From an uncultured Cellulomonas sp. (lineage in GTDB: Bacteria > Actinomycetota > Actinomycetes > Actinomycetales > Cellulomonadaceae), in the NCBI RefSeq assembly GCF_947494015.1, contig NZ_CANLTL010000006.1, positions 1 through 64,000 of the forward strand: 64,000 nt of DNA, read 5' to 3'. Positions 8,853-58,397 of this stretch are shown piece after piece (within the stretch, counting starts at the first letter, position 1; every line of letters begins with the position of its first letter). Made by a program: the position numbers and the translations under genes. Under the pieces are notes generated by a model. The model was not told where the DNA came from. It ran no database searches and saw nothing but the letters and a program-made list of their open reading frames with translations.

Positions 8853-8888
8853 CACGAGGCCCCGCGGCGAAAGCCGCGGGGCCTCGTG
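8853..8888. terminator. Bidirectional hairpin terminator
   Basis: Perfect 16-bp stem cacgaggccccgcggc-gaaa-gccgcggggcctcgtg between convergent STAS and fba genes. Confidence 0.9.
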
Positions 8889-14609: not shown

Positions 14610-15464
14610 ATGCGCCTGGCCACCTGGAACGTCAACTCCGTCCGCTCCCGGGTGGACCGGGCCGTCGCCTTCCTCGAGCGCACCGGGACCGACGTGCTGG
14701 CGCTGCAGGAGACGAAGTGCCGCGACGACCAGTTCCCGCGGGCGGCCTTCGAGGCGGCCGGGTACGAGGTCGCCACCTTCGGGTTCAGCCAGTGGAACGG
14801 CGTGGCGCTGGTCTCGCGGGTCGGGCTGGACGACGTCGAGCGCGGGTTCCCGACGCAGCCGGGGTTCGGCGAGGCGCCGGGCCCCGAGGCGCGCGCGATC
14901 GGCGCGACCTGCGGTGGGGTGCGGGTGTGGAGCCTGTACGTGCCGCACGGCCGCGCGGTGGGTGACCCGCACTACCGGTACAAGCTCGCCTGGCTGGACG
15001 CGCTGCGCACGCAGGCCCAGGGGTGGCTCGACCCGGCGACGGGTGACCCCGACGCCGCCGTCGCCCTGGTCGGGGACTGGAACGTGGCCCCCCGGGACAC
15101 CGACGTGTGGGACCTGGCGGTGTTCGCCGACCAGACCCACATCACCCCGCCCGAGCGCGCGGCCTTCGCCGCGTTCGAGTCGGCGGGGTACACCGAGGTG
15201 ACGCGGGTCCACGTGCCGCAGGACCGCCGGTACACCTATTGGGACTACCAGCGGCTGCGGTTCCCGCGCGACGAGGGGATGCGGATCGACTTCGCGTACG
15301 TCTCGCCGGCCGTGGCGGCGCGGACCACCGCGGTGTCCATCGAGCGCGTCGAGCGCAAGGGCAAGGCGCCGTCGGACCACGTGCCCGTCGTCCTGGACCT
15401 GGCGGACACGGGGGCCCGCACCGGGGCGGACGGGTCGGCGGACGCCGCGGCGGACGCGGCGTGA
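14610..15464 (+). CDS. xth: Exodeoxyribonuclease III
   Basis: MRLATWNVNSVRSRVDRAVAFLERTGTDVLALQETKC...GDWNVAPRDTDVWD...MRIDFAYVSP...SDHVPVV. Confidence 0.95.
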   Translation: MRLATWNVNSVRSRVDRAVAFLERTGTDVLALQETKCRDDQFPRAAFEAAGYEVATFGFSQWNGVALVSRVGLDDVERGFPTQPGFGEAPGPEARAIGATCGGVRVWSLYVPHGRAVGDPHYRYKLAWLDALRTQAQGWLDPATGDPDAAVALVGDWNVAPRDTDVWDLAVFADQTHITPPERAAFAAFESAGYTEVTRVHVPQDRRYTYWDYQRLRFPRDEGMRIDFAYVSPAVAARTTAVSIERVERKGKAPSDHVPVVLDLADTGARTGADGSADAAADAA

Positions 15465-16126
15465 GCAGCGACGACCGCTGGACGGCGGCGGAGCCGTACT
15501 ACGCCCCGGGGTGGCCGGCGCCCCGCACCCGCCGTGAGGGGCTGGCCGTCGCCTCGTTCGTCACGGCGCTGGTCGGGCTGGGGGTCGTGGGCATCGGCCT
15601 CGGGATCGCCGCGCTGGTCCGGATCCGGCGCGGCCCCACGGTCGGGCGCGGCTACGCGGTGGCCGGGGTGGTCCTCGGCGCCGTCTGGACGGTCGCCCAG
15701 GTGGTCGTGGTCGCGGGGCTGGTCGCGACTGCCGCGGCGTCCCGTCCGCTGCCGGTCACGATCGACGCGGCGCAGACCGCGTCGGTCGGGCAGCTGCGGA
15801 CCGGTCACTGCCTGGCCGACCTGCCCGCCGACGGCGACGTCAGCGAGGTGGAGGTCGTCCCGTGCGGGGAGCCGCACGGCGCCCAGGTGATCTCGGAGTA
15901 CCGCTTCGCCGACGACGCCGTCTGGCCCGGGCAGGACCGTGCGCACCGGCTCGTGGCCGGGGGCTGCCAGCTGAGCCAGGCCGAGACGGACGCCGGGGTC
16001 GAGGTCCGCACCTGGGCGCCGACCGAGGCCTCCTGGCGCGACGGCGACCGCACCGGGCTGTGCCTGGCCCGGGTCGGGCCGGCCGTCACGGGCTCCCTGC
16101 TCGACGGCTCCGCCGACCTCCCCTGA
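15461..16126 (+). CDS. DUF4190-type membrane protein with extracytoplasmic C-terminal domain
   Basis: REGLAVASFVTALVGLGVVGIGLGIAALVRIRRGPTVGRGYAVAGVVLG; ATGA-type overlap with xth. Confidence 0.8.
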   Translation: MSSDDRWTAAEPYYAPGWPAPRTRREGLAVASFVTALVGLGVVGIGLGIAALVRIRRGPTVGRGYAVAGVVLGAVWTVAQVVVVAGLVATAAASRPLPVTIDAAQTASVGQLRTGHCLADLPADGDVSEVEVVPCGEPHGAQVISEYRFADDAVWPGQDRAHRLVAGGCQLSQAETDAGVEVRTWAPTEASWRDGDRTGLCLARVGPAVTGSLLDGSADLP

Positions 16127-16183: not shown

Positions 16184-16240
16184 CGAGTGCGACGTTCCGG
16201 ACCCTTGGCGGGCGCCGAACGGTCCAGGACGTCGCACTCG
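16184..16240. repeat. 57-bp dispersed palindromic element, copy A
   Basis: CGAGTGCGACGT...GGTCCAGGACGTCGCACTCG; 12-bp perfect terminal arms; between convergent DUF4190 and clpB genes. Confidence 0.85.
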
Positions 16241-16270: not shown

Positions 16271-18901
<2,631 letters not shown>

Positions 18902-35401: not shown

Positions 35402-35439
35402 GACGGCAGGGGCCCACGTCGCCGTGGGCCCCTGCCGTC
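35402..35439 (-). terminator. Intra-operon hairpin downstream of the substrate-binding protein gene
   Basis: Perfect 17-bp stem gacggcaggggcccacg-tcgc-cgtgggcccctgccgtc. Confidence 0.85.
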
Positions 35440-47450: not shown

Positions 47451-49133
47451 ATGCACCCGCGCGCCGGAACCCCCGCCCAGCCCGAGGACCTCATCGACGT
47501 CGATGCCGTCGTGAGCGCCTACTACGACCGCGTCCCCGACCTGGACGACGTCGCCCAGCAGGTCGTGTTCGGGACCTCCGGCCATCGCGGGTCGAGCCTG
47601 GACGGCGCGTTCAACGAGGCGCACATCATCGCGACGACCGCCGCGATCGTGGAGTACCGGCGCTCCCAGGGCACCGACGGGCCGCTGTTCATCGGCCGCG
47701 ACACGCACGCGCTGTCCGAGCCCGCGTGGCGCACCGCGCTGGAGGTGCTCGCGGCGGCCGGCGTGGAGGTGCACGTGGACGCGCGCGACTCCTGGACGCC
47801 GACCCCGGCGGTGTCGCACGCGATCCTGCTGCACAACGGCGCGGCCACGTCCCAGGGGGTCCGCACGAGCGGACCGGGGCTCGCGGACGGCATCGTGGTG
47901 ACGCCGTCGCACAACCCCCCGCGCGACGGCGGCTTCAAGTACAACCCGCCGCACGGCGGGCCGGCGGGCTCGGACGCGACGGGGTGGATCGCGGCCCGCG
48001 CCAACGAGCTGCTGCGCGCCGGGGTGGGCGGCGTTCCGCGGGTCGGCGTCGAGACGGCGCTGGCCGCGGACACCACCCGCCGGCACGACTTCCTCTCCGC
48101 GTACGTCGACGACCTGCCCAACGTGCTGGACCTCGCCGCCATCCGCGAAGCGGGTGTACGGATCGGCGCCGACCCGCTGGGTGGTGCCGCGGTCGAGTAC
48201 TGGGCGGCCATCGCCGAGCGCCACGGGCTGGACCTGACCGTCGTCAACGCCGAGGTCGACCCGCGCTGGTCCTTCATGACCCTGGACTGGGACGGCAAGA
48301 TCCGGATGGACTGCTCCTCGCCGTCCGCCATGGCGTCCCTGGTGGGGGTGATGGCCGGCGGCGCGGGCGGCCGTCCGCCGTACGACATCGCGACCGGCAA
48401 CGACGCGGACTCCGACCGGCACGGCATCGTCACCCCGGACGCCGGGCTGATGAACCCGAACCACTACCTCGCGGTGGCGATCCGGTACCTGTACTCCGGC
48501 GCCCGCCCGCAGTGGTCACCCGACGCGGCGATCGGCAAGACGCTCGTGTCCTCGGCGCTCATCGACCGGGTCGCGGCAGCGACCGGCCGGACGCTGCTGG
48601 AGGTCCCGGTGGGCTTCAAGTGGTTCGTGCCGGGGCTGCTCGACGGCTCGGTGGGCTTCGGCGGGGAGGAGTCCGCCGGGGCGTCGTTCCTGCGCCACGA
48701 CGGCACGGTGTGGACCACCGACAAGGACGGGATCCTGCTCGCGCTGCTCGCCTCGGAGATCACCGCACGGACCGGCAGGACGCCGTCGCAGCACCACGCG
48801 GAGCTCGTCGGGGAGTTCGGCGAGTCCTGGTACGCGCGGGTCGACGCACCCGCCACGCTCGAGGAGAAGGCCACGCTGGGCAAGCTCTCGCCCGAGCAGG
48901 TCAGCGCCACCGAGCTGGCCGGTGAGGAGATCACCGCCAAGCTGACGGCGGCCCCGGGCAACGGCGCCGCGATCGGCGGGCTGAAGGTGACGACCGAGAA
49001 CGCGTGGTTCGCGGCTCGCCCGTCCGGCACGGAGAACGTCTACAAGATCTACGCCGAGTCGTTCGTCTCGGCCGAGCACCTCGAGCGGGTCCAGAGCGAG
49101 GCCAAGGACGTCGTCGCCAACGCCCTGGGCTGA
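47451..49133 (+). CDS. pgm: Phosphoglucomutase (alpha-D-glucose phosphate-specific)
   Basis: [22 protein letters not shown]...[24 protein letters not shown]...[15 protein letters not shown]...[17 protein letters not shown]. Confidence 0.97.
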
Positions 49134-49202: not shown

Positions 49203-49259
49203 CGAGTGTGACGTCGTCCACCGTTCGCGGGACGCGACCGGTCCACGACGTCGCACTCG
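49203..49259. repeat. 57-bp dispersed palindromic element, copy B
   Basis: CGAGTGTGACGT...GGTCCACGACGTCGCACTCG; 44/57 identical to copy A with no gaps; between convergent pgm and GNAT genes. Confidence 0.85.
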
Positions 49260-49329: not shown

Positions 49330-49665
49330 TCAGCCGCCCTGGCCGCGGCCGGCCTCGGTGCGGACCAGGTCCTGGTACTCGGGGTGGTCGCTGATGAAGG
49401 CCGAGACGAACGCGCACAGCGGCATCACCCCGCGGCCCGAGGCCCGCAGCTGGTCCAGGGCCTCGCGCACCAGCTGGGTGCCGACGCCGTGCCCCTCCTC
49501 GCCCGGGTCGACCTCGGTGTGCACGAGCTCGAGGTCGGCGGCGGAGGAGTCCTCCCCGGTGTGCTGCGCCGGGCGGTAGTCGATGAAGCCGACCACCTCC
49601 CCGTCGGCGCCGAGCGCCTCGAACCGTGAGCTCTCCGGACGGTCCACGACCGTGACGTTGTCCAT
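49330..49665 (-). CDS. Small GNAT-like N-acetyltransferase (YjdJ-like)
   Basis: GEVVGFIDYRPAQHTGEDSSAADLELVHTEVDPGEEGHGVGTQLVREALDQLRASGRGVMPLCAFVSAFISDHPEYQDLV. Confidence 0.88.
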   Translation of the reverse strand: MDNVTVVDRPESSRFEALGADGEVVGFIDYRPAQHTGEDSSAADLELVHTEVDPGEEGHGVGTQLVREALDQLRASGRGVMPLCAFVSAFISDHPEYQDLVRTEAGRGQGG

Positions 49666-58349: not shown

Positions 58350-58397
58350 CCCGCGCCGCCGGCCTGCCGCCGGCCCACCGCTGCCGAGCCAGCACCC

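Follow-up and report, generated by a model that had tools for sequence, protein, structure and literature searches.

What kind of element is the 57-bp palindrome that lies between two convergent genes at positions 16184-16240 of the window (the whole stretch of 64,000 nucleotides of Cellulomonas DNA that was analysed), and how did a second copy come to occupy a similar place at 49203-49259? The two copies, A and B, and their neighbours are the following:

16184..16240, no strand assigned: copy A of the 57-bp extragenic palindrome (sequence, fold, covariance-model matches)
16184..16195, + strand: left outer arm of copy A, CGAGTGCGACGT (exact)
16229..16240, - strand: right outer arm of copy A, the reverse complement of the left arm (exact)
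16199..16225, no strand assigned: inner block of copy A, GGACC ... GGTCC (column conservation, dialect comparison)
49203..49259, no strand assigned: copy B of the 57-bp extragenic palindrome (sequence, fold, covariance-model matches)
15461..16126, + strand: DUF4190/septum-formation-like gene, 3′ end toward copy A (gene call, Pfam)
16271..18901, - strand: clpB, convergent partner at copy A (gene call, Pfam, ortholog comparison)
47451..49133, + strand: phosphoglucomutase (pgm) gene, 3′ end toward copy B (gene call, Pfam)
49330..49665, - strand: GNAT acetyltransferase gene, convergent partner at copy B (gene call, Pfam)

An earlier note on this DNA had placed both palindromes at these positions, folding end to end and flanked by convergent genes, and sequence, fold, gene calls and Pfam matches confirmed it. 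Copy A, the top-ranked inverted repeat of the window, has perfect outer arms of 12 bp, and the arm of copy B carries a single T/G mismatch (T7 vs G51). The predicted RNA hairpins reach -42.0 kcal/mol (z -7.3) for copy A and -40.4 kcal/mol (z -5.9) for copy B, and no shuffled sequence equalled either. A comparison of the window with Rfam at the gathering threshold returned three tRNAs only, the 57-bp element matching no family, and literature searches, mainly outside subscription journals, gave nothing relevant on the arm sequence, on Cellulomonas palindromic or inverted repeats, or on actinobacterial bidirectional terminators or REPs, in keeping with the earlier view that this is not a recognised described family. 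The window also holds three GC-rich near-perfect hairpins unrelated in sequence to the element (8853-8888, 35402-35439 and 58358-58391), the first and the last of which sit in convergent gaps and resemble normal terminators.

The genome of the window is a draft assembly of 4.28 Mb in 44 contigs. The arm pattern GAGTGNGACGT-gap-ACGTCNCACTC, with gaps of 15 to 45 bp allowed (37-67 bp in total), matched this genome 17 times, always with a gap of 33 bp (55 bp in total), and the reversed control gave no match, so that the 57-bp element family is not the product of chance. The earlier note had proposed a covariance-model search for further copies, and such a model, built from 16 copies, found 140 strand hits in the same genome, that is, about 70 palindromic copies (copy A was matched on both strands with E values of 2.5e-15 and 5.5e-14, and copy B at 8.6e-14 and 1.0e-12). 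A weight matrix derived from the same 16 copies and scored on the stretches round the elements recovered 67 copies at 35 places. The exact-arm copies are uniform in length, and conservation by column bears out the near-invariance of the outer arms noticed in copies A and B (columns 1-12 and 46-57). Also conserved are a block GGACC/GGTCC (columns 16-20 and 38-42) and TT/AA (columns 22-23 and 35-36), whereas the centre is free. The resulting stem is about 20 bp long, with the arm termini (CGAGTG) paired and the CGTC of the element located within the paired arm instead of forming an unpaired tag. Single halves fold weakly, at about -5 kcal/mol vs -35 for the whole element, and the 77 arms of the genome lie nearly all within elements, the exceptions being about ten isolated exact arms that look coding and occur near chance level.

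Base pairing within the element is kept through compensatory changes. The relatives used for comparison were C. aerilata NBRC 106308 (G003), C. fimi SB (G001) and a further Cellulomonas species with a complete chromosome (G004). In a set made of the copies from the genome of the window and from C. aerilata, one per array, partner columns pair beyond column composition (mean z 0.77 vs -0.06 for 585 non-partner pairs), a value reached by no random non-partner set; pairing is strongest for columns 7/51, 13/45 and 12/46. When the copies of other Cellulomonas were added, the difference grew to 2.06 vs -0.10, partly through differences between species. Individual cases include a compensated arm change in C. 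fimi SB (CGAGAGTGACGT..ACGTCACTCTCG) and a compensated variant (AGTGAGACGT..ACGTCTCACT) common to the genome of the window and C. aerilata at one orthologous place. A shuffle test on the 16-copy alignment alone did not find pairing above composition, and the evidence for pairing therefore comes from the larger set. Since hairpin-templated mutation could also preserve pairing, the covariation indicates a hairpin but does not in itself establish an RNA function. Selection at the RNA level could not be demonstrated from a bias of G.U over A.C mismatches, the sense strand of the co-directional copies having no such excess in a small sample (24 vs 28).

These compensatory changes bear on the idea that the element is a double-stranded site for a dimeric DNA-binding protein, either a chromosome organiser or a regulator, whose dyad symmetry would yield the hairpin as a by-product. 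Such a site would fit a 12-bp arm that hardly changes from one species to the next although the inner part does, a constant length of 57 bp with a 72-bp array period, and the 13-bp arm that in another genus of the family (genome G013) recurs every 21 bp, or two helical turns. However, compensated changes in the arm and the inner stem are unexpected for half-sites read independently, the genome of the window is devoid of divergent (promoter) copies, and its 72-bp period does not correspond to an integral number of turns of 10.5 bp. We regard a protein site as quite improbable, and the protein-binding palindrome put forward in the earlier note is weakened, as a fixed site, by the compensatory arm changes.

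A more telling feature is the location of the copies with respect to genes, which was obtained with a simple codon-usage gene caller on the stretches round the elements. At the 28 loci of the genome with both neighbours called, 16 copies or clusters lie between convergent and 12 between co-directional genes, with none between divergent ones; no copy overlaps a called gene, and the usual position is 10-100 bp past a stop codon. Since 16 of the 60 adjacent gene pairs of the window are divergent and hold 38% of its intergenic length, finding no divergent locus among 28 has a chance of about 2e-4 by pair count and 2e-6 by length. Among the relatives, C. aerilata has 8 convergent loci, 8 co-directional ones and 1 divergent one; the corresponding numbers are 4, 4 and 0 for C. 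fimi SB and 2, 5 and 1 for G004, where one copy overlaps a gene call. A bias toward convergent genes, as anticipated from copies A and B, thus stands insofar as convergent loci are numerous and divergent ones absent, but the 12 co-directional loci indicate that the true rule is a position downstream of a gene. The copies of G004 are scattered across its complete chromosome, and clustering in a macrodomain was rejected. As for the flanks, the 40 nt upstream of the element contain 55% C and 27% G, and the 40 nt downstream 59% G, 22% C and 10% T with no T-run, a skew that exceeds that of nine element-free convergent gaps. To transcripts from either side this would look like the C-rich, G-poor surroundings in which Rho loads.

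The reading that we favour, and that has in our judgement about an even chance of being correct, is that the element belongs to an undescribed family of extragenic palindromes, dispersed and centred on Cellulomonas, that would work as two-way hairpins at gene ends and would spread and be homogenised at the DNA level. Upon transcription from either side, a copy would fold into its stem of roughly 20 bp and either end or protect both mRNAs, for which reason selection would tolerate and keep the element at the 3′ ends of genes. Because there is no U-tract and a C-rich, G-poor stretch precedes the hairpin, the likeliest form of this activity would be termination assisted by Rho, in which the hairpin sets the ultimate 3′ boundary. 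At the DNA level, copies would spread and overwrite each other through non-autonomous transposition or through gene conversion acting on the hairpin, which would turn the inner block into a genome-specific dialect. In favour of this reading are the copy number and fixed length, the absence of divergent and intragenic loci in the genome of the window with a similar placement in three relatives, the covariation of partner columns, the hairpins at the orthologous clpB and pgm-GNAT sites, the skewed flanks and the difference between dialects. The absent U-tract, the lack of a G.U bias, the many old orthologous copies and the failure to find a spreading enzyme count against this explanation.

Tandem amplification is frequent in the genome of the window, where 15 clusters are arrays. 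Of the 15, 12 repeat with a period of exactly 72 bp, made up of the 57-bp element and a spacer of 15 bp (one unit among them is 4 bp short), and the remaining three have periods of 82, 83 and 94 bp. The spacer sequence is common within an array, differs between arrays and ends in GC; a common ancestral array as the source of the 15-bp spacers was rejected, little being shared past the final GC (P 0.01-0.05 with GC fixed). Two of the 12 arrays with the 72-bp period may be copies of one another, since both lie at contig starts and have the same spacer. In the case of C. aerilata, arrays at two orthologous places show periods of 102/102/97 and 132/133 bp. One array in the genome of the window is located 3′ of a 5S rRNA gene, past a canonical U-tract terminator, which counts against the favoured reading, an extra terminator seeming redundant there. 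Contigs C5, C9, C17, C18, C21 and C27 start or terminate at or near 57-bp arrays, and array copy numbers taken from this draft assembly are therefore probably underestimated. Arrays of this kind could probably serve for strain typing and are likely places for assemblies to break.

A draw of 297 Micrococcales genomes, which left out C. aerilata and G004, showed strong enrichment of the exact 12-bp arm in the genome of the window only (73 vs 3), while C. fimi SB gave a fainter signal (13 vs 5). For a 13-bp arm, the counts against the control are 52/1 in the genome of the window, 41/1 in C. aerilata, 24/2 in G004, 10/1 in C. fimi SB and 81/3 in G013. The architecture occurs in at least three other Cellulomonas genomes and, with the copy number of about 70, upholds in a broad sense the genus-level REP/BIME-like element suggested earlier. 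C. aerilata has about 35 copies, and most of its places examined are orthologous to places in the genome of the window. The elements found in C. fimi SB and G004 mostly measure 56-58 bp, with one reaching 67 bp, and combine the same or similar arms with other genome-specific inner blocks. The inner block of copy A belongs to such a dialect, which is common to C. aerilata and absent from C. fimi SB and G004. Comparison of copies from the genome of the window with one another gives an inner-half identity of 0.64; the corresponding value for C. fimi SB is 0.54, and that across these two genomes is 0.285. Detection of the relatives' copies with a model of the window genome's own copies introduces a bias that opposes seeing such a difference. 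Between the genome of the window and C. aerilata the identity is 0.61.

Orthologous sites offer a closer view. At the 3′ end of clpB, the site of copy A, C. fimi SB has an element in its own dialect. The hairpin present there in C. aerilata is GC-rich and unrelated, and the majority of the other relatives also have an unrelated one, although some show none. The convergent pgm-GNAT pair that flanks copy B is found in C. aerilata too, with another hairpin instead of the element. At the equivalent position to copy B in C. aerilata (L127:19661-19708), a CACGTG tandem repeat (GGCCTCCCGCTTCACGTGACCC twice) follows the pgm terminator hairpin. The presence of other hairpins at both sites indicates that the element substitutes for a 3′-end hairpin and that copies are gained or lost. 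The earlier statement that this does not look like an ordinary terminator is thus right about the unusual sequence family, but less so about the site, since that of clpB holds ordinary, unrelated hairpins in most species.

Such equivalence of the clpB position to unrelated hairpins, the many C. aerilata copies at orthologous places and a slightly higher inner-region identity of orthologs (0.607 vs 0.561 for non-orthologs between the genome of the window and C. aerilata, permutation P 0.008) would all be expected if the copies were simply vertically inherited bidirectional terminators, alike through a few local duplications and with no need for mobility or homogenisation. This we consider very improbable, because about 70 copies, one length among those with exact arms, dispersal over 35 places and an inner block that differs genome-wide in other species call for a copying or homogenising process.

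A Y1 transposase (PF01797, RAYT-type) was present in none of six genomes, all main carriers included, with 5 of 14 controls positive, so the check for a RAYT/transposase gene advised in the earlier note turned up no RAYT in any carrier, and a RAYT-driven REPIN was rejected. No excess of 1-9-bp direct repeats was found at 35 cluster ends, which led to the rejection of a MITE with target duplication. Exact arms outside elements amount to about ten chance-like matches. A MITE-like nature, the other proposal made earlier, is therefore unsupported by the tests run, neither target duplication nor, in the search with exact arms, an autonomous partner having been found. The exact-arm pattern had no match in IMG/VR contigs, and phage-borne spread was likewise rejected.

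A purely selfish, REP/MITE-like miniature mobile palindrome with an unrecognised enzyme and no function, whose placement would reflect purging from genes and promoters, would account for the abundance of copies, the genome-specific inner blocks, the tandem arrays, the presence or absence at orthologous sites and the lack of an RNA-specific mismatch bias. It fits poorly with the missing target duplication, Y1 transposase (six genomes) and exact-arm autonomous partner, with long retention at orthologous places and with a site equivalent to hairpins of other species, and we judge it rather unlikely. A bolder and rather improbable proposal is that a hairpin-directed, non-Y1 DNA process copies and overwrites the elements of each genome, keeping the arm, swapping the inner block genome-wide and amplifying 72-bp (57 plus 15) units. 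If true, these non-coding repeats would homogenise themselves by means of a putative enzyme and would be new in kind.

Dispersed palindromes are best known from Proteobacteria, where many are linked to RAYT transposases, and the 57-bp family extends a similar 3′-end placement to an actinobacterium in which no Y1 transposase was found. RAYT-associated REPs and REPINs share with it the many extragenic copies, mostly downstream of genes, but its halves lack a strong stem-loop, and there is neither an unpaired GTAG-type tag nor a RAYT. The uptake sequences (DUS/USS) known from Neisseria and Haemophilus resemble the 57-bp element in forming terminator-like hairpins where inverted pairs lie at the ends of genes, and in having species dialects; those sequences are, however, found as hundreds to thousands of single copies, whereas the 77 arms here are almost only paired within elements. 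An analogue of DNA uptake sequences was rejected, isolated arms being near chance level. In actinobacteria, intrinsic terminators without a U-tract have been reported, and the element resembles them as a GC-rich hairpin just past a stop codon, usable from both sides. It is also like a bidirectional 3′-end hairpin in the broad sense, lying just past the stop codons of one or both sides, and differs from a classical intrinsic terminator in having no T-run after the hairpin. Ordinary terminators share structure only, whereas this is a family of fixed length with conserved arms, arrays and genome-specific inner blocks. U-tract terminators are believed to be frequently missing in GC-rich actinobacteria, which makes the copies direct targets for studying how transcription ends, and the constant arm with genome-specific inner blocks at orthologous sites such as clpB provides a natural experiment on the spread and replacement of hairpins.

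Further parallels are found in the palindromic repeats with GTAG and CGTC tags (Di Nocera et al. 2013, PMC3733652), described in a text that makes no mention of Actinobacteria or Cellulomonas. Like these and REP/BIME/REPIN elements, the 57-bp palindromes are dispersed and extragenic, lie mostly between convergent or co-directional genes downstream of coding regions (PMC3733652), and form species-specific families, REP-type dimers being also able to form long hairpins; unlike REP/BIME/REPIN elements, they consist of a single fixed 57-bp palindrome instead of 20-40-bp units. CGTC repeats share with them the lack of a dedicated transposase. A CGTC-tagged REP has an unpaired terminal CGTC, an 8-9-bp stem, a 4-5-base loop and a CCA-like tail (PMC3733652), in contrast to the paired CGTC and stem of about 20 bp seen here. 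Neisseria dRS3 is classed as a CGTC-1 repeat (PMC3733652), and the dRS3/NIME arrays are likewise intergenic clustered palindromic repeats, but differ in unit size, sequence and layout from the 72-bp period with array-specific 15-bp spacers.

Other repeats were encountered in related genomes. In G013, a complete genome, the 13-bp arm GCCGAGTGYGACG (81 occurrences, control 3) forms direct repeats every 21 bp, with forward blocks followed by reverse blocks, which are distributed over L185-L204 (e.g. L185:2050-2281, L186:2072-2410 and L192:2043-2377) and sometimes enclose a gene or a second repeated sequence. The latter, GTGGGTGCG...AAGGCGTCAAGGAGTGCGCACGGCC...GCACCCACCCGC, lies between the 21-bp blocks at L186:2170-2360, L192:2110-2300 and L191:2440-2560, and looks like a separate MITE-like element. 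Finally, the Micrococcales matches L040, L048/L058, L049/L056 and L050/L057 are palindromes comparable in size but with different arms (GAACACGACGTT, GACTGGGACGTT, GACTTGTGACG and CGAGTGCGAGGTTGTTGG), which suggests further families, their likeness being biased by detection with the model of the window genome's copies.
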